Of a stretch of 64,000 bases of DNA, positions 8,602-25,970 are shown one piece after another; the stretch's first letter is position 1, and each line of letters opens with the position of its first letter. The stretch lies in contig NZ_JADKRR010000001.1 in the NCBI RefSeq assembly GCF_015351105.1, forward strand, positions 682,001 to 746,000. Reading direction: 5' to 3'. Below the pieces are notes generated by a model, which was not told the origin of the DNA, did no database searches, and saw nothing but the letters and a program-made list of their open reading frames with translations. The position numbers and the translations under genes were made by a program. This DNA comes from Clavibacter sp. VKM Ac-2872. Lineage in GTDB: Bacteria > Actinomycetota > Actinomycetes > Actinomycetales > Microbacteriaceae.

Positions 8602-9999
8602 ATGGCCGACGACCCCACCGCCTCCCCGGCGACGACCGCGCCCGCATCCGGCGCGCCCGCGGCGCCCGCCGCGACCGAGAAGCCCACCCGCCGCGAGCTC
8701 GTGAAGGCGTTCACCGCGAGCCTCACCGGCACCTCGCTCGAGTGGTACGACTTCGCCGTGTACTCGGCCGCCAGCGCCGTCGTGTTCCCCGTCGTCTTCT
8801 TCCCGTCGTCGGACCCGTACACGGCGACGATCCTCGCGTTCTCCACCTACGCGGTCGGCTACGTCTCGCGCCCCGTCGGCGGGTTCGTCTTCGGGCGGCT
8901 CGGCGACAAGATCGGCCGGAAGCCCGTCCTCGTCCTCACGCTGCTGCTCATCGGCATCGCGACGTTCCTCATCGGCGTGCTGCCGGGCTACGCGACCATC
9001 GGGCTCGCGGCGCCGATCATCCTGGTGCTCCTCCGCTTCGCGCAGGGCGTGGGCGTCGGCGGCGAGTGGGGCGGGGCGGTGCTGCTCTCGAGCGAGTTCG
9101 GGGATCCACGCAAGCGCGGCTTCTGGTCGTCGGCCGCGCAGGTCGGCCCGCCCGCGGGCAACCTGCTCGCCAACGGCGCGCTCGCGCTGCTCACCGTGCT
9201 GCTCACCGAGGAGGACTTCCTCGACTGGGGCTGGCGCGTGGCCTTCCTGCTCTCCGCGCTGCTCGTGGCGTTCGGCCTCTGGATCCGCCTGAAGCTCGAG
9301 GACACCCCCGTGTTCAAGGCGCTGCAGGAGCGCGGCGACCGGCCGAGCGCGCCCGTGTCGGAGGTCTTCAGCACGCAGGCCCGCCCGCTCGTGGCCGCGA
9401 TCCTCAGCCGCGTCGGCCCGGACGTGCTCTACGCGCTCTTCACCGTCTTCACGCTCACCTACGGCGTGAACTCGCTCGGCTTCGAGCGCAGCCAGGTGCT
9501 CGTCGCGGTGCTGGTGGGATCCGCGGTGCAGCTGTTCACGATCCCGTTCGCGGGCGCCGTGAGCGACCGCATCAACCGCCGGGCGCTGTACGCGGCGGCC
9601 GCGGTGGGCGCGGCCGTCTGGGCGTACGTCTTCTTCGCGATCACCGACGGGTCGTCGACCTTCGTGCTGGGTGTCGGCATCGTGCTCGGGCTGTTCTTCC
9701 ACTCCTTCATGTACGGGCCGCAGGCGGCGTACATCATCGAGCAGTTCTCACCCCGGCTCCGCTACACGGGCGCCTCGCTCGCGTACACGATCGCCGGCGT
9801 GATCGGCGGGGCGATCGCGCCGCTGATGTTCACGATCATCTACGAGGAGACCGGCAGCTGGGTCGGCATCGCGCTGTACCTCACGGCCGCCGTCGTGCTC
9901 ACCCTCGTGGGGCTCGCGCTGGGCCGCGACTCGGACGTGTCCGAGGACGAGGAGTACGTGCGCACGGGCGCCGAGGGCGTGGCGGCGCCGGTCGCCTGA
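8602..9999 (+). CDS. MFS transporter, metabolite:H+ symporter (MHS) type
   Basis: A 465-residue, 12-helix major facilitator. MHS-subfamily hallmarks are LTGTSLEWYDFAVYS at the first helix, GRLGDKIGRKPVL in the loop between helices 2 and 3, and RFAQGVGVGGEWGGA in helix 4. It probably imports an organic acid or amino-acid-like compound with protons. The chosen ATG at 8602 has GAGGAG four nt upstream; an in-frame extension to 8464 would run over the operator and is unlikely. Its neighbours (DUF2848, carbon-nitrogen hydrolase, FCD regulator) suggest it takes up the compound those enzymes degrade. Confidence 0.9.
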   Translation: MADDPTASPATTAPASGAPAAPAATEKPTRRELVKAFTASLTGTSLEWYDFAVYSAASAVVFPVVFFPSSDPYTATILAFSTYAVGYVSRPVGGFVFGRLGDKIGRKPVLVLTLLLIGIATFLIGVLPGYATIGLAAPIILVLLRFAQGVGVGGEWGGAVLLSSEFGDPRKRGFWSSAAQVGPPAGNLLANGALALLTVLLTEEDFLDWGWRVAFLLSALLVAFGLWIRLKLEDTPVFKALQERGDRPSAPVSEVFSTQARPLVAAILSRVGPDVLYALFTVFTLTYGVNSLGFERSQVLVAVLVGSAVQLFTIPFAGAVSDRINRRALYAAAAVGAAVWAYVFFAITDGSSTFVLGVGIVLGLFFHSFMYGPQAAYIIEQFSPRLRYTGASLAYTIAGVIGGAIAPLMFTIIYEETGSWVGIALYLTAAVVLTLVGLALGRDSDVSEDEEYVRTGAEGVAAPVA

Positions 10000-10018
10000 G
10001 GGTCGAGCCGCATCGGCC

Positions 10019-10052
10019 GACGCCCGGATCCCCGCAGCGGGATCCGGGCGTC
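10019..10052. terminator. Bidirectional hairpin terminator
   Basis: A perfect 14-bp stem (GACGCCCGGATCCC and its complement) with a 6-nt loop lies between the convergent transporter and GntR genes, so it can serve both. Confidence 0.75.
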
Positions 10053-10096
10053 GTCGCGTGCGCGCGGTGCCGGCCCGTGATGCGCGAGGAAGCCCG

Positions 10097-10771
10097 TCAG
10101 GCGCGCAGCAGCACGTCGAGCGTGACGGCGAGGTGCCGGTCGATCGCGTCGCGCGCGGCCTCGGCGTCGCCCGCGGCCAGCGCGTCGACGATGCCGGCGT
10201 GCTCCTCGCACACCCGGTCCTGCCGGTCGGTGGCGCGGTAGAGCGCCTCGACGCCGACGAGGATCTGCCGGGCGCGGAGCTTCGCGTAGGTGCGGCTCAT
10301 GAGCTCGCTGCCCGCGGCGTCGACGAGGAGCTGGTGGAAGCGGCGGTCGTGCTCGATGAACTCCCGGCCGCTCTCGCGCGGCGGCGTCGCGACCATGGCG
10401 CGCTGCTGCTCGAGAACCTCGCGCATGGCGTCGAGCGGCGTGCGGTCGTGCTCCACCGCGCTCGTGGCGGCGTGCCGTTCGAGGACGCCGCGCAGCTCCA
10501 TCAGCTCGGCGATCTCGCGGCCCGTGATGACGGGGATGCGCGCGCCGCGCTTGGGGATCATCTCGACCAGGCCGTCGGCGGCGAGCAGCAGCAGCGCCTC
10601 GCGGACGGGCGTGCGGGAGACGCCGATGCGTTCCGCGAGCACCTGCTCGTTGAGGAACGCGCCCTGCTGGTCCGGGTCGGTGAGGACGTGCGCGTGGAGG
10701 AACTCGTAGGCCCGCTCGCGGCCGGAGAGGGCGCTCGACGAGGACCCTGGATCGCCCGCCCGTTCTCGCAT
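10097..10771 (-). CDS. GntR family transcriptional regulator, FCD subfamily
   Basis: A 224-residue regulator. The winged helix is at about residues 20-80 (ERIGVSRTPVREALLLLAADGL, then KRGARIPV). An all-helical FCD ligand domain follows, with EHDRRFHQLLVDAAGSEL and a late EEHAGIVDALAAGD block that carry typical metal/ligand His residues. The palindrome ATGTATACAT ends six nt upstream of its start and overlaps the likely promoter shared with the divergent hydrolase, which suggests autoregulation. No Shine-Dalgarno is seen, so the transcript may be leaderless. Confidence 0.92.
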   Translation of the reverse strand: MRERAGDPGSSSSALSGRERAYEFLHAHVLTDPDQQGAFLNEQVLAERIGVSRTPVREALLLLAADGLVEMIPKRGARIPVITGREIAELMELRGVLERHAATSAVEHDRTPLDAMREVLEQQRAMVATPPRESGREFIEHDRRFHQLLVDAAGSELMSRTYAKLRARQILVGVEALYRATDRQDRVCEEHAGIVDALAAGDAEAARDAIDRHLAVTLDVLLRA

Positions 10772-10776
10772 ACGCT

Positions 10777-10786
10777 ATGTATACAT
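10777..10786. promoter_or_regulatory. Probable GntR/FCD operator ATGTATACAT
   Basis: A perfect 10-bp palindrome in the 28-nt divergent gap between the regulator and the carbon-nitrogen hydrolase. It shares the eight-base core TGTATACA with the site at 8521-8530. Its position would block both promoters when bound. Confidence 0.7.
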
Positions 10787-10799
10787 CACGAGGAGGACC

Positions 10800-11639
10800 A
10801 TGCGAGTCGCGCTAGCCCAGATCATCAGCTCCCCGGATCCCGCGGACAACCTGGCACGGATCACCGCCTTCGCGGAGGACGCCGCGCGGCAGGGCGCCGA
10901 GCTCGTGGTGTTCCCCGAGGCGGCGCAGCGCGCGTTCGGGAACCCGCTGCCGGAGATCGCGGAGCCGCTCGACGGGCCGTGGGCGTCCGGTGTGCGGGCC
11001 GTCGCCGACCGGCTGGGCGTCGTGATCGTCGCGGGCATGTTCACGCCCGGCGCCGGCGGCCGGGTGCGGAACACGCTCCTGGTCGCGCGGCCGTCCGGCG
11101 CGGAGGCCGCGGGCGCCGGCTCGTACGACAAGATCCACCTGTTCGACGCGTTCGGGTTCCGCGAGTCCGACGCCGTGGACCCGGGCGACGAGGTCGCGGT
11201 GATCGAGGTCGGCGGCACCCGCGCGTCCCTCGCCACCTGCTACGACGTGCGCTTCCCCGCCCTGTTCCTCGCGGGCGCCGACCGCGGCGCGGCCGTCAGC
11301 GTCGTGTGCGCGAGCTGGGGCGCAGGCCCCGGGAAGGCCGACCAGTGGGACCTCCTGCTCCGCGCCCGCGCGCTCGACTCCACGACCTTCGTCGTCGCGG
11401 TCGGCCAGGGCGACCCCGCGACGCTCGAGGCCGGATCCCGCGGCCACGACCCCGCGAGCGGCGCGCCCACGGGCATCGGCCGCAGCGCCGTGATCTCCCC
11501 GCTCGGCGAGGTGCTGCACCGCCTCGGCGGCGAGGAGGAGCTGCTCGTCGTGGACGTCGCCCCGTCGGTCGTCGAGGCCGCGCGCGGCACGCTGCCCGTG
11601 CTCGCCAACCGGCGGCGGGGGCTCGAGCAGGCGGGCTGA
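10800..11639 (+). CDS. Carbon-nitrogen (nitrilase-superfamily) hydrolase
   Basis: A 279-residue enzyme with the full catalytic set: Glu40 in ELVVFPEAA, Lys111 in YDKIHLFDAFG, and Cys147 in ATCYDVRFP. The GYDK-H-FD pattern is typical of amidases of the NIT2/deaminated-glutathione and omega-amidase branch rather than true nitrilases. ATG at 10800 has GGAGGACC directly upstream. It is divergent from the FCD regulator with one operator between them, so it is probably the hydrolytic step for an amide taken up by the MHS transporter. Confidence 0.9.
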   Translation: MRVALAQIISSPDPADNLARITAFAEDAARQGAELVVFPEAAQRAFGNPLPEIAEPLDGPWASGVRAVADRLGVVIVAGMFTPGAGGRVRNTLLVARPSGAEAAGAGSYDKIHLFDAFGFRESDAVDPGDEVAVIEVGGTRASLATCYDVRFPALFLAGADRGAAVSVVCASWGAGPGKADQWDLLLRARALDSTTFVVAVGQGDPATLEAGSRGHDPASGAPTGIGRSAVISPLGEVLHRLGGEEELLVVDVAPSVVEAARGTLPVLANRRRGLEQAG

Positions 11640-11645
11640 TCCAGG

Positions 11646-12809
11646 TCAGTCGACCGCCGGCTCCTCGCGGCTCGCCGCCGGGCGGCCCGCGTGCCGGACG
11701 CCCAGGGCGAGCCAGGAGGCCAGCGACGCGACCGCCGCGATGGCGACGAAGACCCCCCAGGCGCCCGTCGCGCCCACTACGGCGACGGCGGCCCCGATGA
11801 CGGGCGGCATGAGGGCGGCGGTCAGGCCCCAGGACGACCCGACGACGCCGAGCGCGGCCACGTGCAGCGACGCGGGGGTGCGGGCGAGGACGGCGGGGAC
11901 CATGCCCGCCGTCAGGAGGAGCTCGCACAGGGTCCAGCCGACGCCGAAGACCAGCCAGCTGTCGGTCGCGGCGACGGCGACAGCGGTGACGGCCGCCCCC
12001 GCGAAGCCCGCCGCGAGGTAGGCGGGCGCGGACGCGTCGCGCACGAGGCGCAGCACCAGCGGCTGGGCGGCGAGCAGGAGCACCACGTTCGTCAGCGCCG
12101 CGTAGACGTACGACTCCGGGTTCGCCGTGGTGAGGGCGTACTGCATGCCGAGTCCCTGCATCACGGCCGTCGCCCCCGTCGCGACGACGAGCGCGGACCG
12201 CAGGTGCGCGACCGTGCCGCGGGCGCCGAGCGGGACGGGCGGCCTGGTCCGCGCCACCGCCTCCGAGCGGGGGATCACGCACGCGGCGACCAGCAGCACG
12301 GCGCCCTCCGCGGCGAAGAGCGGCCCGAGGTCCGAGCCCGACGCCGCGACGATCCCCGCGATCCCGGTCGCCACGACGCCGCCGACGTTCGCGCTCCAGG
12401 AGATGACCGACTGGGTGCGGGCCTGTCGGTCCGCCGGGGCGGAGACCGTGAGGAGCGTGCCGATGAGCGAGCGGGCGAGGCTCGAGGCGGCTCCGATCGC
12501 GAACATGGCCGCGCAGGGCAGCACGAGCGGCGCGCCCGCCGTGAGCGGCAGGAGGACCAGGGCGATCCCGTTGAGCACGAGCGTGCCCCCGAGGACGGGG
12601 CGGAGGGGGCGATCGCCGACGAGGAGGCCCGCGGCCGCGGGGAGCAGCACGGATCCGACGCCGAAGGCCGTGAGGATCAGCGCGACCTCCCCCGTCGTGT
12701 GCTGCCCGCGGAACCAGACCACGGCCACGATCGAGGTGAAGCCGGCCGCGCGCACCAGCACGAGCAGGGCCAGGAGGCGGCGGGACAGCCGCCTCACGTC
12801 CGCGCTCAT
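11646..12809 (-). CDS. MFS transporter at the end of a biosynthetic-type operon
   Basis: A 387-residue major facilitator with about 12 hydrophobic helices, resembling drug or metabolite exporters of the MFS_1 type (charged RRLSRRLLALLVLVRAAGFT start; loop GDRPLRP between helices 2 and 3). The ATG at 12809 overlaps the stop of the MetRS-like gene by four nt (ATGA), so it is cotranslated with the operon. The gene is convergent with the carbon-nitrogen hydrolase with only six nt between. Given the neighbours, export of or self-protection against the operon product is the likeliest role. Confidence 0.85.
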   Translation of the reverse strand: MSADVRRLSRRLLALLVLVRAAGFTSIVAVVWFRGQHTTGEVALILTAFGVGSVLLPAAAGLLVGDRPLRPVLGGTLVLNGIALVLLPLTAGAPLVLPCAAMFAIGAASSLARSLIGTLLTVSAPADRQARTQSVISWSANVGGVVATGIAGIVAASGSDLGPLFAAEGAVLLVAACVIPRSEAVARTRPPVPLGARGTVAHLRSALVVATGATAVMQGLGMQYALTTANPESYVYAALTNVVLLLAAQPLVLRLVRDASAPAYLAAGFAGAAVTAVAVAATDSWLVFGVGWTLCELLLTAGMVPAVLARTPASLHVAALGVVGSSWGLTAALMPPVIGAAVAVVGATGAWGVFVAIAAVASLASWLALGVRHAGRPAASREEPAVD

Positions 12810-20656: not shown

Positions 20657-22186
20657 ATGACCGACCAGAAGTTCACGACCACCGACTCCGGCGCCCCGGT
20701 CGCCAGCGACGAGCACTCGCTCTCCGTCGGCCCCGACGGCGCCATCCCGCTGCACGACCACTACCTCGTCGAGAAGCTCGCGCAGTTCAACCGCGAGCGC
20801 ATCCCGGAGCGCGTCGTCCACGCCAAGGGCGGCGGGGCGTTCGGCACCTTCCGCGTCACCAACGACGTGAGCGCGTACACGCGCGCCTCCCTCTTCCAGC
20901 CCGGCGCCGAGGTCGAGATGCTCGCGCGCTTCAGCACCGTCGCCGGCGAGCAGGGCAGCCCCGACACGTGGCGCGACCCCCGCGGCTTCGCGCTGAAGTT
21001 CTACACGGACGAGGGCAACTACGACCTCGTCGGGAACAACACGCCCGTCTTCTTCATCCGCGACGGGATCAAGTTCCCCGACTTCATCCGCTCGCAGAAG
21101 CGCCTGCCGGGCTCGCACCTGCGCGACCACGACATGCAGTGGGACTTCTGGACGCTCTCGCCCGAGACGGCCCACCAGGTCACCTGGCTCATGGGCGACC
21201 GCGGCCTGCCGAGCTCGTGGCGCCACATGGACGGCTTCGGCTCGCACACCTACCAGTGGATCAACGCGGCCGGCGAGCGCTTCTGGGTGAAGTACCACTT
21301 CAAGACGCAGCAGGGCATCGAGATCCTCAAGCAGGAGCAGGCCGACCAGATCGCGGGCGAGGACGCCGACTTCCACATCCGCGACCTCACGGAGGCCATC
21401 GACCGCGGCGACTACCCGGAGTGGAAGCTCGAGGTGCAGATCATGCCCTACGAGGACGCCAAGTCGTACCGGTTCAACCCGTTCGACCTCACGAAGGTCT
21501 GGTCGCAGAAGGACTACCCGCGCATCGAGGTCGGCACCATGACCCTGAACCGCAACCCGGAGAACTACTTCGCGCAGATCGAGCAGGCCGCGTTCGCGCC
21601 CTCGAACTTCGTGCCCGGGATCCAGACCAGCCCCGACAAGATGCTCCTCGCGCGCATCTTCAGCTACGCCGACGCGCACCGCTACCGCGTGGGCACCAAC
21701 TACGCGCAGCTGCCGGTCAACGTGCCCAAGTCGCCCGTGCACAGCTACTCGAAGGACGGCCAGGGTCGCTACACGTTCGAGTCGGCGGGCACGCCCGTCT
21801 ACGCGCCCAACTCGCTCGGCGGCGCGCACGCCGACCCGGCTCGCGCCGCGGAGAGCGCCGGATGGGAGCAGGACGGCGAGCTCGTCCGCGCGGCCGCCAC
21901 GCTGCACGCGGAGGACGACGACTTCGTCCAGGCCCGGATGCTCGTCAACGAGTCGATGGACGACGCCCAGCGCGAGCGCCTCGTCGGCAACATCGTCGGC
22001 CACGTGAGCAAGGTCACCACGGCCGAGCTGCGCGCCCGCGTCATCCAGTACTGGACGAACGTGGACGGCTGGCTCGGTGCGGCCGTCGCCGCGGGCCTGC
22101 CGCCGCTCGCCGGTGACGCGCCCGTCGCCGAGGCCACCCCCGGCCCGACGCGCGACGCCGAGGAGGTCGGCGTCGCCGCTCACTGA
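20657..22186 (+). CDS. katA: Monofunctional haem catalase
   Basis: A 509-residue small-subunit, clade-3-type catalase that dismutates hydrogen peroxide in the cytoplasm. His55 in [14 protein letters not shown] and Asn128 in VGNNTPVFF form the distal site. The proximal haem Tyr is in the [12 protein letters not shown] block. The N-terminal [15 protein letters not shown] and the NADPH-region residues are typical. AGGAG is well placed before the ATG. Probably controlled by the adjacent Fur protein. Confidence 0.98.
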
Positions 22187-22216
22187 GCCGCGGCGGTGAT
22201 CCGCTGATCGAATGAC

Positions 22217-22252
22217 ACGACGCCCGTCCCCTGACGCAGGGGGCGGGCGTCG
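22217..22252 (+). terminator. katA terminator hairpin
   Basis: A 10-bp stem (ACGACGCCCG with its complement) encloses a second CCCCT/AGGGG stem, 30 nt after the katA stop. It marks the end of host-like sequence; GC content drops immediately afterwards. Confidence 0.75.
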
Positions 22253-22397
22253 TCGCGACGGTATGTGTCGCGGGCGTGTATGGCAAGGACGCTGCCTTCC
22301 TAGCAGTCGCATCAGGGTCGATTGTCTGCTCACGGCTCCGCATACTTCCATTAACCGTGGCCTTGTAAATGTGTAGCGTTGAGCAACGCCTGCTAGG

Positions 22398-22790
22398 TCA
22401 TGGCTGGCTCGCATCATCCGCTTTTAGGGCGAGGCTTTCGAGCTCATCCACAGTGTGGGCCCACTCGTCGATCAGGGGGCCGGCAATGTTCGTCATACTG
22501 GTTCGCCCGTGAAGCACATCGGATGAGCGGGTATATATGTGCCGGGCGGTGCGGATGAGCCTCACGATATCTTCAAGCGATGTGCGTCCATCGTAAGCGA
22601 CTCCGACGAATGCCAGACGCGGTTTTATGACTTCCTGTTTCACCAGTACCGCCTTGGTGGTAAAGGAATCTTTTACAGCCGTCACCATTATAAGCTCAAT
22701 GCGATGGCGCAGCTCGACTATGGCCAGCCGCTTGGCCGATTCGGTACGGTCTCGCAAGCTGTTCATGACGCTTTCGCTAATATTGAGCAA
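22398..22790 (-). CDS. Small helical protein with HEPN-like R-x5-H motif
   Basis: A 130-residue protein of no recognised family. It is predicted to be almost entirely helical (two long amphipathic helices at 1-40 and 70-95, and a C-terminal helix at 100-125). YTRSSDVLHGR places Arg88 and His94 in an R-x5-H arrangement, within the R-x4-6-H spacing of HEPN ribonucleases. The ATG lies 28 nt inside the end of the ATPase gene on the same strand, so the two are cotranslated. Low GC and ordinary-frequency codons mark it as acquired. It may be the effector or a toxin-like partner of the ATPase, or a structural accessory; there is no direct evidence of activity. Confidence 0.7.
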   Translation of the reverse strand: MLNISESVMNSLRDRTESAKRLAIVELRHRIELIMVTAVKDSFTTKAVLVKQEVIKPRLAFVGVAYDGRTSLEDIVRLIRTARHIYTRSSDVLHGRTSMTNIAGPLIDEWAHTVDELESLALKADDASQP

Positions 22791-25213
22791 GCTTTGCGTG
22801 CCTTTTTGATTTCAGCACGAGTGACTGCGTCTGTGATCTCGTTGCCATGAATGGCCTGATTCCATCGTTCCGCATAAGGACTGCACTCCTGCAGTGCTGC
22901 CAGAACCGGGTTTATGGTTCCAGGGTCCTGCCAGAAGTTACTAGCCACAGTCATGCGCTCCGCCGTAGTGCGAACTGCGTCTATGGCCTGTAAGTCCAGC
23001 GCCGTATTCCGGCCGCTCAGTGCAGCATTCCTGAGTGTGAATGTGCGAAGCGCATTGTCAAGGCCTAGCCTGCATAACCGACGGACGGCCATGCTGACGT
23101 CTAGTGTTGATCCAGCTTCGGCTACGGCGAGGTCATGAATAGTTCCCGCGTCTGTAAGTAGATCAACCCAAAACTGGCTACTATCGGTCACTTCGACATT
23201 GCCGCTTGCGCTTGAGCGATCGACGAGCCGCGTGTCGGTGTCTTTGGCCCGTGCGACCAGGTGCTCTTTCAATCGATCATCGTGCGTGAGGACTATGACT
23301 CGACGGGTCTCGGCTAGCTCTGATAGAAGTTCGGCGAGGTGATCGATTCTGAGTTCATCAAATGCATGAACAGGATCGTCTAGAAGGATAAAGCCGAAAG
23401 GGCCAGCCTCAACCGAAGCTAACAAGGGGGCCAATAGTACTGCGTTGCGTTGTCCTGCGCTTAGCATGCCGAGCTCTACTGCATTGTCGTTGCGATCAAC
23501 AAGTTCCATGTTGGCTTTCGTCGATTGAGCGTTGATGCGGTTGAGCCTCAAATCCGCATCTGCTAGCAGTTTGCTGATTTGCAGACTCGCTTTGCCTTGC
23601 AGCACGTCACTTCGACGCTCGCGAAGCGCATTACGTAGCTCCTCCACGCGACGAGCGGTTTTGGTCCATAGCGTGGTTTCGCGCGCAGAATCGCCGTCAA
23701 GCGACCAGACGGCAATGAACTCTTGTACTGCATGAGATCTGGCGATTCTCCAGAGTCTTGTCTGATCGGTTCGAGAAAGAGCCTCTTCGATAAGAGACGT
23801 ACCCTCTTCGGACAGAACCCATTGTGCAAGCGCCGCCGAAGCAGTAAGTGCCGAATGTTGAGTTGGAAGTGTCTCGCGCGCCGCCTCTTGGAAATTGGCT
23901 ATAAGGCGGGAGGCGGTTGAACTGCTCACGTCGGAAGTATCGGACGGGCCGCCGCTTGAGCACGCGGCAACTGCCGGAACAAGGAGGCTCTCTACTGCGT
24001 CTTTGAAGGCTGCATGGGCTTGTGTCACTTGCTGGCGGAGTGTGGTAATTTGCGTGTTGCTAATGACGGATTGCTTCAAGATCTCGATCCAATTTACGTC
24101 TTCCGAGGCGCAAACGGGACAAGTAGAAGTACTAACGTGATGGGCGAGAGCTTCTGATTGCATCAGCTGGAGGGCTGTAGAAAGTTTGTGATTCATCGTC
24201 ATCGATGATTCATCAAGCGCCCGGATTGCCCCTTGCAGTTCCGTTGCGCTAAAACTAAGGCGCGTCTTTGTGTCCGTGGGTAAAGAGCTTGAGATCGACC
24301 CCTGAGCCGAAAGTTGCGCGTTCTCAACCCAATCCTCTTTATTTTGGTCCACGGTAGGCTCAGGGACCATTTCAAGATGTACCGATGAGGAGCCACTTCG
24401 TTCTAGGTCAACGGTCGCCAGTCGACGCATAGCCTCATCCTTGGCTGAGCGCCAGCGCCTTAGGGCCTCAGCGGAAGCCTCTCCTTCTCTAGAGACTGCG
24501 GTCTGCAGGGAGCTAAAACTTCCGCCTAATGCGAGAAGTCCCTCAAAGTATGAGGCAAGGTCCTTACTTAATTGCACTTGTCTTTCCAGAGAGGCGTAAG
24601 CAAAAACCGGCTGATGGCTAACTAGCGCTTCATTCCATGAGGCGTCCAGCTCGATAGTCGCTTCGTCGCCTGACTGCTGGAGCGTCGCTTGATGCGACTC
24701 GACCGCTCCATCGGCGTCGAGTATTGCCTGTAGCGTCAATCGCTTATCGTCGCCAACGAGTGTGAGTATAACTTGAGCGCGAGATGCACCTCTGGCGAGG
24801 TGTATAGGGTCCCAGAGTCGTGCGCTTCCGGCTTTACCCTTGGCGTTTTGGGCTATTCTTCCGCTAAGGGCTATGTCGACGGCATCACTGATGCTTGATT
24901 TGCCTGCTCCATTTAATCCGTGCAAAACGGTAATTCCTGGAGTTGGGTCAAAAATGATCTCCAGCGGAGTGTCATTGACAACTCCTCGGAAGCCCATGAT
25001 CGAAACCTTTTCGAGCTGCCAGGTGGTCTGTCCAGCATTCCATGTCAATGAGCTGGTTGGTGCTCCCGCGAGGTTGGATGCGACTTCATGTAATTTGTCC
25101 CAGCTTTCGCGCCCGGTCCTCGCGGACTGTCTCTTGTTTTCGATCGCTTCAACTATGTCCTGGTTTGAGTACATCGTTAGCGCTTGAATATCCGCTGGTT
25201 CCGCTACGGTCAT
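22763..25213 (-). CDS. Rad50/RloC-like AAA ATPase with CPVC zinc-hook motif
   Basis: 816 residues. Walker A is HGLNGAGKSS (98-107), after a FRGVVNDTPLEI strand typical of SMC/Rad50/RecF-type heads. Long helical segments at about 230-350 and 375-560 flank CPVC (365-368), the geometry of a Rad50 zinc hook. The ABC signature is MLSAGQRN (583-590), Walker B FILLDDPVHAFDE (608-620) with DDP as in AAA_13/PrrC/RloC ATPases, and the H-loop VLTHDD (641-646). A C-terminal helical domain of 140 residues ends with AERWNQAIHGNE, giving R783-x5-H789. AGGA lies five nt before the ATG. It is probably a DNA- or RNA-sensing ATPase of a phage-defence module. Confidence 0.85.
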   Translation of the reverse strand: MTVAEPADIQALTMYSNQDIVEAIENKRQSARTGRESWDKLHEVASNLAGAPTSSLTWNAGQTTWQLEKVSIMGFRGVVNDTPLEIIFDPTPGITVLHGLNGAGKSSISDAVDIALSGRIAQNAKGKAGSARLWDPIHLARGASRAQVILTLVGDDKRLTLQAILDADGAVESHQATLQQSGDEATIELDASWNEALVSHQPVFAYASLERQVQLSKDLASYFEGLLALGGSFSSLQTAVSREGEASAEALRRWRSAKDEAMRRLATVDLERSGSSSVHLEMVPEPTVDQNKEDWVENAQLSAQGSISSSLPTDTKTRLSFSATELQGAIRALDESSMTMNHKLSTALQLMQSEALAHHVSTSTCPVCASEDVNWIEILKQSVISNTQITTLRQQVTQAHAAFKDAVESLLVPAVAACSSGGPSDTSDVSSSTASRLIANFQEAARETLPTQHSALTASAALAQWVLSEEGTSLIEEALSRTDQTRLWRIARSHAVQEFIAVWSLDGDSARETTLWTKTARRVEELRNALRERRSDVLQGKASLQISKLLADADLRLNRINAQSTKANMELVDRNDNAVELGMLSAGQRNAVLLAPLLASVEAGPFGFILLDDPVHAFDELRIDHLAELLSELAETRRVIVLTHDDRLKEHLVARAKDTDTRLVDRSSASGNVEVTDSSQFWVDLLTDAGTIHDLAVAEAGSTLDVSMAVRRLCRLGLDNALRTFTLRNAALSGRNTALDLQAIDAVRTTAERMTVASNFWQDPGTINPVLAALQECSPYAERWNQAIHGNEITDAVTRAEIKKARKACSILAKAS

Positions 25214-25413
25214 GAGATTCCTGCCGTTGGAGGCGGCCGTGTTGCCACCCTGTCCAGATCCTCACATGGCAAGGTCGCGGTGGCTACTGCAACTCGGCGG
25301 AGTTTATCGCGGTACCCCTCGAAATAGGGGCGTCTCGGGCGCACTCGACCCGCTTGGTTGCCAACGTTGGCTGCCGATGGCGCATATGCACGTGCTTCTA
25401 TGTGGGTGGCCAT
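25210..25413 (-). CDS. Possible short ORF coupled to the ATPase, or gene remnant
   Basis: A 67-codon frame whose TGA overlaps the ATPase ATG (ATGA), the usual sign of translational coupling. The product (MATHIEARAYAPSAANV..., basic, with RPRRPYFEGYRDKLRR) matches nothing I recognise. The frame stays open upstream beyond 25413 into the end of the GNAT gene on the other side of the island junction. It may therefore be the 3' end of a gene truncated by the insertion rather than a complete gene. The rest of the 245-nt gap shows no promoter I can defend. Confidence 0.25.
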   Translation of the reverse strand: MATHIEARAYAPSAANVGNQAGRVRPRRPYFEGYRDKLRRVAVATATLPCEDLDRVATRPPPTAGIS

Positions 25414-25457
25414 GTCCCATATAGGCGTGATCTCACGCGCTCCGACCTGTTTAAGGA

Positions 25458-25970
25458 TCAGGCGAGCGGCAGCTCCATCTCCAGGTCCCTCTGCGTGCGG
25501 TCGAGCGCGTACGGCACGCTGCGGCCCGTGAGGACGAAGCCGCGGCGCTCGTAGTAGGCGCGGGCGCGCGGGTTGTCCTCGTGCACCTCGAGGCGGAGGG
25601 CCTGCGCGTTCGGACGGTCGCGGGCCCAGGCGATGACGGCGTCGAGGAGCATGTCGGCGACCCCGGCCGCGCGACCCCGGGCGTCGGGCGTGATGTAGAC
25701 GCTCACGAGCATCACGCGCGTGGGATCCGCGGCGACGAACGCGTTCATGGCGCCGAGCCAGCGGCCGGTCGCGCGCTCCACGGCGACGTACGCGGTGCTC
25801 CCGGGCTGGTTCGCGCGCCGCGTCCGCGCCTGCCAGTCGGAGTCGGGCCGGCCGAGCGCGTGCTCGAGGGTCTCGAGGTAGGCGAGCGGGGTGTCCTCGA
25901 GCATCTCGAGGCGGAGGGCGCGGTACTCGCGCCAGTCCTCGGCGCGGAGGCGGTGGATCACGGCGTCCAT
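25458..25970 (-). CDS. GNAT family N-acetyltransferase
   Basis: A 170-residue GNAT. The acetyl-CoA loop is in VYITPDARGRAAGVADMLLDAVIAWA (the R-G-x-G/A region), and the C-terminal LRLEVHEDNPRARAYYERRGFVLTGR is the classic motif B segment. High-GC host codon use resumes abruptly with this gene, marking the right edge of the island. The next GNAT gene ends only 5 nt upstream of its start, so the two form a pair. Substrate unknown. Confidence 0.9.
   Translation of the reverse strand: MDAVIHRLRAEDWREYRALRLEMLEDTPLAYLETLEHALGRPDSDWQARTRRANQPGSTAYVAVERATGRWLGAMNAFVAADPTRVMLVSVYITPDARGRAAGVADMLLDAVIAWARDRPNAQALRLEVHEDNPRARAYYERRGFVLTGRSVPYALDRTQRDLEMELPLA

Follow-up and report, generated by a model that had tools for sequence, protein, structure and literature searches.

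ATPase-coupled nucleases as a frame of reference

The anticodon nucleases PrrC and RloC share a catalytic triad laid out as R-x3-E...H; in RloC, 36-52 residues separate the glutamate from the histidine of the triad, and replacement of any one of R692, E696 or H737 by alanine abolished in vivo activity (PMC2610378, passages on the triad). Among the HEPN families, one is described as keeping the histidine but not the arginine of R-x4-6-H, while DUF4145, which belongs to the same Pfam clan as HEPN PF05168, is listed in other fusions, with restriction endonuclease, helicase, TIR and ATPase in one species (PMC3710099, in the sections cited here). Here, two overlapping genes of Clavibacter sp. VKM Ac-2872 are compared with these and other defence systems. 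They lie on contig NZ_JADKRR010000001.1, in the stretch of 64,000 nucleotides (nt) from 682,001 to 746,000 that was analysed as a whole and is referred to as the window; all coordinates count from its first letter. The genes encode a zinc-hook ATP-binding cassette (ABC) ATPase and a small protein, each with an HEPN-like domain, and the pair is probably a two-gene, RloC/PrrC-like module, i.e. a putative abortive-infection or 'guard' ribonuclease (RNase).

The ATPase and its small partner

Both genes are encoded on the minus strand. The ATPase gene (22763..25213) starts with ATG and encodes 816 amino acids (aa), for which open reading frames (ORFs), Pfam and 98 aligned homologues define an SMC/Rad50-like head, a zinc-hook insert and a C-terminal HEPN-like domain. 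The head contains a Walker A motif (GLNGAGKSS, residues 99-107, 24893..24919), followed by the zinc hook CPVC (residues 365-368, 24110..24121) and by the ABC signature LSAGQ (residues 584-588), which together with Walker B (ILLDDP) spans residues 584-614 (23372..23464). Twelve residues of the ATPase are invariant in 98/98 homologues, namely K105 of Walker A, C365, P366 and C368 of the hook, S585 and G587 of the signature, D612, D613 and P614 of Walker B, and additionally D619, H644 and D645; the H-loop is conserved as well. Walker B reads DDP, with Asp where the catalytic Glu is usual. In Pfam, the ATPase matches SMC_N (1.1e-15) and AAA_23 (3.8e-10). A sequence-only reading of the window had reported two overlapping genes, the Walker, signature and CPVC motifs and a zinc-hook ABC/Rad50-like ATPase, and these claims hold. 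As a side observation, a weak second match to the ATPase head (2.7e-6) was found in the window's own genome (L002, G000:C1:1419053-1419268) within a 1287-aa frame, perhaps an SMC or similar housekeeping ATPase.

The 98 loci comprise the 80 top-ranking loci, less one duplicate, out of at least 416 candidates that were confirmed, the hits of scans of the phylum, of viral contigs and of the order, and the window itself; the sample is thus biased and rich in related members. Duplicates (L016-L027 and L074) were dropped, and L139, the locus of the pair from genome G884 discussed below, is not among the 98. The partner gene lies downstream of the ATPase gene at 95 of these loci and was not found at the other three (L058, L096 and L109), which leaves 95 partners for comparison.

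The small HEPN-like partner (22398..22766) overlaps the ATPase gene by 4 nt. Its most likely start is ATG 22766 (122 aa), because the ATGA overlap of 4 nt that this start gives is common to 69 of the 95 homologous pairs; in 24 more, the partner starts within 40 nt, and in 2 it starts elsewhere. The sequence-only reading had recognized the small gene and placed its start at TTG 22790 (130 aa); with the corrected start, R88 and H94 become R80 and H86. The TTG-based residue numbers R28, E32, R88 and H94 are retained below for comparison and correspond to R20, E24, R80 and H86 of the 122-aa protein, in which the candidate active-site motif reads R20-x3-E24...H86. Pairwise distances of partners and ATPases are correlated (Spearman 0.77 overall; 0.56 when only clade 2 is considered, where none of 200 shuffles exceeded 0.13), with shared species history not removed from these values. 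Judging from gene order, overlap and distances, the ATPase and small protein genes form one unit. No PADLOC model matched the window's partner at E values up to 1. Matches of the small protein to chlorophyll-binding and chlorohydrolase entries were taken as chance: only 1 of 62 members shows the Pfam match again, and the PDB matches mostly cover about 25 residues. PDB profile searches with the two domains returned nothing useful.

Conserved residues and relationship of the two domains

The sequence-only reading proposed R783-x5-H789 at the ATPase C-terminus and R88-x5-H94 in the partner as HEPN-type motifs and listed a lack of conservation of the arginine/histidine pair among homologues as one outcome that would refute its proposal. 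Both pairs are present in the window, but the arginines are not conserved family-wide, with R783 found in 6/98 ATPases and R88 in 18/95 partners. On these counts, R-x5-H was rejected as the active site. In the window's clade (n=11), residue 88 is nevertheless basic in 9 members (five R and four K, against one E and one D), so that a local role of this residue is conceivable there.

A different set of residues is conserved in both proteins. In the C-terminal HEPN-like domain of the ATPase (about residues 685-816, 22766..23161), which is delimited by conservation and profile similarity to the partners, R715-x3-D719...H789 stands out, as R715 is present in 95/98, E or D at position 719 in 93/98 and H789 in 95/98 homologues. 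The partner shows R28 in 94/95, E or D at position 32 in 95/95 and H94 in 92/95 sequences. In the partner, conservation is highest at the columns of R28, E32 and H94; at the ATPase C-terminus, the top three columns are R666, R715 and H789, and position 719 ranks tenth. Both domains therefore display the R-x3-E/D...H layout of the anticodon nuclease triad.

The relationship of the two domains was assessed with hhalign, in which the part of the ATPase that starts at residue 660 was compared to partner profiles, with four other ATPase segments as controls. For clade-2 and pooled profiles, the C-terminus aligns with the partner at 52-72% (E 3.5e-5 to 1.5e-4), and the R-x2-L-E columns and the H column are in register in the alignment inspected, whereas the controls reach at most 0.7%. 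Across the wider family, this points to paralogy of the ATPase C-terminus and the partner as two copies of one domain. DUF4145 aligns with clade-2 and pooled partners over 100 columns, again with the triad in register, at 22-25% (E 9.5e-4 and 7.6e-4; 25% and 7.6e-4 for the pooled profile). As a yardstick, DUF4145 aligns with HEPN PF05168 at 35.5%, and the other ATPase segments reach at most 0.4% with DUF4145. Values of 2-6% are obtained for the ATPase C-terminus itself with DUF4145, and N-x-[AG]-x-H accounts for the match of the pooled profile (NQAIH in the window, NQAVH in DUF4145). Most DUF4145 members read carry R-x3-E followed by N-x-A-x-H (LGNQAVH, compared to RWNQAIH in the window), but the match of the partner family remains below any cut-off. 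The proposal of two HEPN-like parts, originally tied to the R-x5-H pairs, is no longer tenable on that basis; it survives because the R-x3-E...H triad and the weak DUF4145 similarity remain, and both domains are likely of HEPN type. Separately, a DUF4145 (HEPN-clan) domain was noticed elsewhere in the window's own genome (L181, G000:C1:101529-101801), in a 1127-aa open frame that is perhaps a restriction or helicase fusion.

Comparison with described systems

RloC resembles the window ATPase in an ABC head that is split by a CxxC-hook insert and followed by a C-terminal R-x3-E...H domain, as well as in its sporadic distribution. In addition, the DDP form of Walker B is found in 8/8 RloC-type proteins, of which one matches AAA_13 at 4.2e-153 and seven are its tblastn relatives with 21-33% identity. 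The spacing of the triad differs, as the 36-52 residues given for RloC (PMC2610378, same passages) compare with 69 between D719 and H789 of the window ATPase and 61 in its partner. The Pfam family of RloC and PrrC, AAA_13, scores 22.6 bits on the window ATPase at a cut-off of 36, so that Pfam does not place it in RloC. The CxxC zinc hook is present in 98/98 homologues. A further difference is that the second, related domain is a separate, tightly linked protein here. PrrC likewise combines an ABC ATPase with an R-x3-E...H domain beside type I restriction-modification (R-M) genes, which is also the arrangement of the hsd-linked relatives described below; PrrC is not known to be accompanied by a comparable small partner. 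The zinc-hook insert, in turn, is assigned to RloC and not to PrrC in the cited part of PMC2610378.

Among the PADLOC models, LmuB of Lamassu is the best match of the ATPase (3.6e-25); it also matches mad3 of MADS (2.1e-21, on the head), PtuA of Septu (at best 2.2e-10, residues 66-216) and AriA of PARIS (2e-8, part of the head). Lamassu shares a Rad50-like ATPase, often with a zinc hook, and an abortive-infection logic with the proposed module, but has another effector and another gene order. An operon of LmuA and LmuB, with or without LmuC, was not recovered: the insert holds two plausible genes without an LmuA or LmuC match, and the partner matches no PADLOC model. LmuB generally carries Gln in place of the catalytic Glu, according to the section of PMC10586767 cited here. 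The mad3 profile spans 374 positions and no other mad gene was found in the insert, so that MADS was rejected on its missing partners. Septu (PtuA with the HNH protein PtuB) and PARIS (AriA with the TOPRIM protein AriB) were rejected as well, as the partner has neither a PADLOC nor an HNH or TOPRIM match, and Gabija (GajA, an ABC plus TOPRIM protein, with the helicase GajB) was dismissed because Pfam detects neither a TOPRIM nor a helicase domain in the two plausible genes of the insert. The sequence-only reading had set the pair apart from Septu, PARIS, Gabija and Lamassu, and this is accordingly confirmed for the complete systems, whose partners are missing. No name for the pair was found in Pfam, PADLOC, NCBIfam or the literature; the literature search covered neither preprints nor a 2020 classification of ABC ATPases, so that the ATPase may have been mentioned before.

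Distribution and genomic neighbourhood

At E 1e-20, and with the window's own genome included each time, the ATPase was detected in 14/396 genomes of the phylum (about 3.5%), 4/396 of the order and 2/18 of the genus. By record titles, the 80 top-ranking loci belong mostly to Actinomycetota, with five from Dormiibacterota and single metagenome-assembled genomes of Acidobacteria and Chloroflexi. In two overlapping draws of 149 and 198 genomes from the phylum, the same single genome (G129) contained AAA_13 proteins (E 1e-40). The scan of viral contigs yielded one distant ATPase relative, L109 (IMG/VR contig, 9980-12406), at which the partner was not found. Three plasmid matches to the ATPase were obtained, and in the two examined (H1 and H2), small genes follow it. 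A tblastn search of plasmids with the small protein found nothing. On H1, an ATPase annotated with 748 aa is followed by genes of 72 and 138 aa, and the ATPase may be split. On these two Streptomyces plasmids, the ATPase and small genes are located near genes for a methyltransferase, DUF6119, TPR and a helicase or large ATPase, and near an NB-ARC gene in one of them.

The neighbourhood of the family was surveyed by tblastn at 1e-15 with eight queries in 97 loci, leaving out L109 and the duplicates. Seven of the queries were drawn from the very loci under study and the eighth from a relative on a plasmid; in addition, many of the loci are related to each other and the controls represent only part of the organisms. 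This limits the following counts and makes the Fisher value computed from them unsuitable as a probability. HsdM was matched in 23 loci, HsdR in 17, HsdS in 8, DUF6119 in 8, SngC-type genes in 6, DrmD-type genes in 5, UvrD-like genes in 4 and DrmA-type genes in 2. At least one of these defence-linked queries was matched in 31/97 loci and in 26/62 of the loci of at least 18 kb, compared to 0/40 other 20-kb regions. A family scan of the neighbours covered 142 called genes at 15 chosen loci, considering the best 25 of 72 and the best 25 of 101 families.

Individual loci illustrate these associations. In a Streptomyces locus (L041), an HsdM-HsdS-HsdR operon lies upstream, with 658 nt between the end of HsdR and the ATPase gene, and a DUF6119 gene (L041:12760-14499) follows the small gene; a 768-aa gene upstream of hsdM (L041:639-2945) was also observed, which has no Pfam or PADLOC match. 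In a Pseudonocardia locus of the window's clade (L036), PADLOC identifies DrmD upstream and DrmA directly downstream of the pair, and the corresponding genes of L032, from the same clade, share 97% and 95% identity with them. As DrmD- and DrmA-type genes occur on either side, the pair is positioned between two DISARM genes in both loci. At L071, a gene for an SngC-type helicase-exonuclease is found directly upstream of the pair. A 436-aa ORF at L111 clusters with the SngC-type genes and was unmatched in the eight-query count.

Proposed mechanism and alternative explanations

Under the RloC/PrrC-like interpretation, both domains would be halves of a HEPN-type RNase. A zinc-hook ATPase dimer would hold two fused HEPN-like domains and bind two free ones, and it would sense invasion through DNA ends or because a restriction system encoded next to it is inhibited. 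ATP turnover might then rearrange the HEPN-like parts such that, most likely, a fused copy pairs with a free copy to create an RNase site, which would cut tRNA or other cellular RNA and thereby stop phage growth. A more detailed version of this proposal, put forward tentatively, holds that in an unnamed defence family, mainly of Actinomycetota, an ancestral HEPN-like domain was duplicated, that its fused and free copies have to heterodimerise to form the putative RNase site, so that ATPase-driven assembly would license RNA cutting, and that in Actinomycetota the family acts in place of PrrC/RloC as a guard beside type I R-M and DISARM. If the RloC/PrrC-like interpretation is right, a defence family, whose partner in the window matches no PADLOC model, would be present in about 3.5% of the sampled Actinomycetota genomes, providing a candidate guard in a phylum in whose samples AAA_13 (RloC/PrrC) proteins were rare. 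It would also offer a clean system to study the licensing of a HEPN RNase by an ATPase of SMC/Rad50 type, with halves that can be separately expressed, mutated and mixed.

Several results weigh against this interpretation. The arginine of the classical HEPN R-x4-6-H motif is not conserved in either family (98 ATPases and 95 partners). The profile search suggested by the sequence-only reading did return the weak DUF4145 similarity, but in Pfam no HEPN-clan cut-off was reached by any of 62 partners (best values 0.055 for HEPN and 0.13 for DUF4145, one member each) or of 71 C-terminal domains, for which the best 25 of 38 families were considered (best value 0.0038 for DUF4145, one member). In hhalign, HEPN PF05168, compared by means of a profile that left out L190 and L203 because of their in-frame stops, aligns with clade-2 and pooled partners at 2-6% and with the segments at up to 0.8%. 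Within the window's clade, the C-termini reach only 14% with clade-2 partners and 31.5% with pooled partners, and the partners alone reach 0.3% with DUF4145. Because these partners alone give no match to the ATPase C-terminus either (0.2-0.4%), the paralogy of the two domains rests on the wider family. The C-terminus of RloC, represented by eight RloC-type sequences, is not significantly similar to the domains described here (2.4%, E 0.019); this is a weak test, because the RloC C-terminus also fails against HEPN PF05168 (0.1%). Finally, none of the eight queried genes was matched in 9/11 loci of the window's clade, the window included, although some flanks are short; the neighbourhood survey that had likewise been suggested shows a defence-rich context for part of the family.

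Part of this evidence could be read differently. The small protein alone might be the RNase, with the ATPase copy as a docking or inhibitory pseudo-copy that keeps it inactive and the ATPase as antitoxin and sensor. The stronger DUF4145 similarity on the partner side would fit, as would the window's clade, in which position 719 of the ATPase is Asp in 11/11 and the ATPase motif is W-[NS]-x-A-x-H, while the partner retains R28 in 11/11, the acidic residue at 32 (Glu in 10, Asp in 1) and the motif S-[DN]-x-[LM]-HGR. R715 and H789 (95/98 each) are, however, conserved about as well as R28 (94/95) and H94 (92/95), which is unusual for a dead copy and makes this explanation unlikely. The similarity of the head to SMC, Rad50 and LmuB (3.6e-25) and the zinc hook would also suit a Rad50/SMC-like complex for DNA maintenance or against plasmids, in which the small protein is structural and no RNA is cut. 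Such a complex is an improbable explanation of a gene pair with a sporadic distribution (14/396, 4/396 and 2/18 genomes), low guanine-plus-cytosine (GC) content and a variable insertion site, the more so since the three most conserved partner columns are those of a catalytic-looking triad.

An unusual Lamassu or ABC-3C system, suggested by LmuB as the best PADLOC match of the ATPase, appears very improbable. Canonical Lamassu is excluded by its missing components, as the insert contains no LmuA- or LmuC-type match, and the partner lies downstream of the ATPase, in contrast to the middle position described for LmuC. The window ATPase, with 816 aa and an extra C-terminal domain after the head, also exceeds the approximately 650 aa given for LmuB in the cited section of PMC10586767. 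The two ATPases may still have a distant common origin. The two-gene RloC/PrrC-like RNase module thus remains the preferred interpretation of the pair.

The cassette and its insertion site

The pair resides in an inserted cassette at 22256..25457 that is assigned to neither strand and defined by blastn against congener genome G812, composition, repeats and ORFs. These 3202 bp are replaced by 49 bp in G812, whose flanks match the window up to 22255 and from 25458 onwards. The abrupt change of composition that the sequence-only reading had noted is real: the GC content is 0.53-0.55 in the 3.2-kb island and roughly 0.7-0.75 in its surroundings. The island's coordinates, first given as 22262..25457, are likewise confirmed, with the left end at 22256 relative to G812. 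On the left, the cassette is flanked by a plus-strand gene (20657..22186) that, from its sequence, we take to encode a catalase, and on the right by a minus-strand gene (25458..25970), presumably for a GNAT-type acetyltransferase. The latter was found in 18/18 genomes of the genus, with the catalase gene on the same side of it in each. An inverted repeat was detected 3' of the catalase gene (22217-22253), but the repeat search of the island found neither terminal inverted repeats nor a target duplication at the cassette ends. Apart from the two genes, no third plausible gene was seen in the insert when the ORF list was judged by eye, and promoter and terminator scans were close to shuffled expectation.

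Across the genus, the gap between the catalase and GNAT genes ranges from 92 to 4355 bp. It measures 92-125 bp in 5/18 genomes, 591-4355 bp with other ORFs in 11/18, and about 3.3 kb with an ATPase pair of the same family in 2/18, namely the window and G884. In G884 (L139:7617-10402), the DNA flanks are 92-96% identical to those of the window, while the proteins of the two pairs share 27% identity (211/781 and 30/111 aligned residues). Two such divergent pairs in the same position would be consistent with a mobile defence cassette, and horizontal acquisition into a variable chromosomal site probably explains the presence of the pair. The variation of this site across the genus (window 22187-25457; L134, L139 and L157-L171) extends to other contents: a 194-aa protein without a Pfam match is encoded there in G879, with similar ones in G886 and G877, and other genes at the site were named by eye as lipoprotein-like, trypsin-like and ABC-transporter genes.

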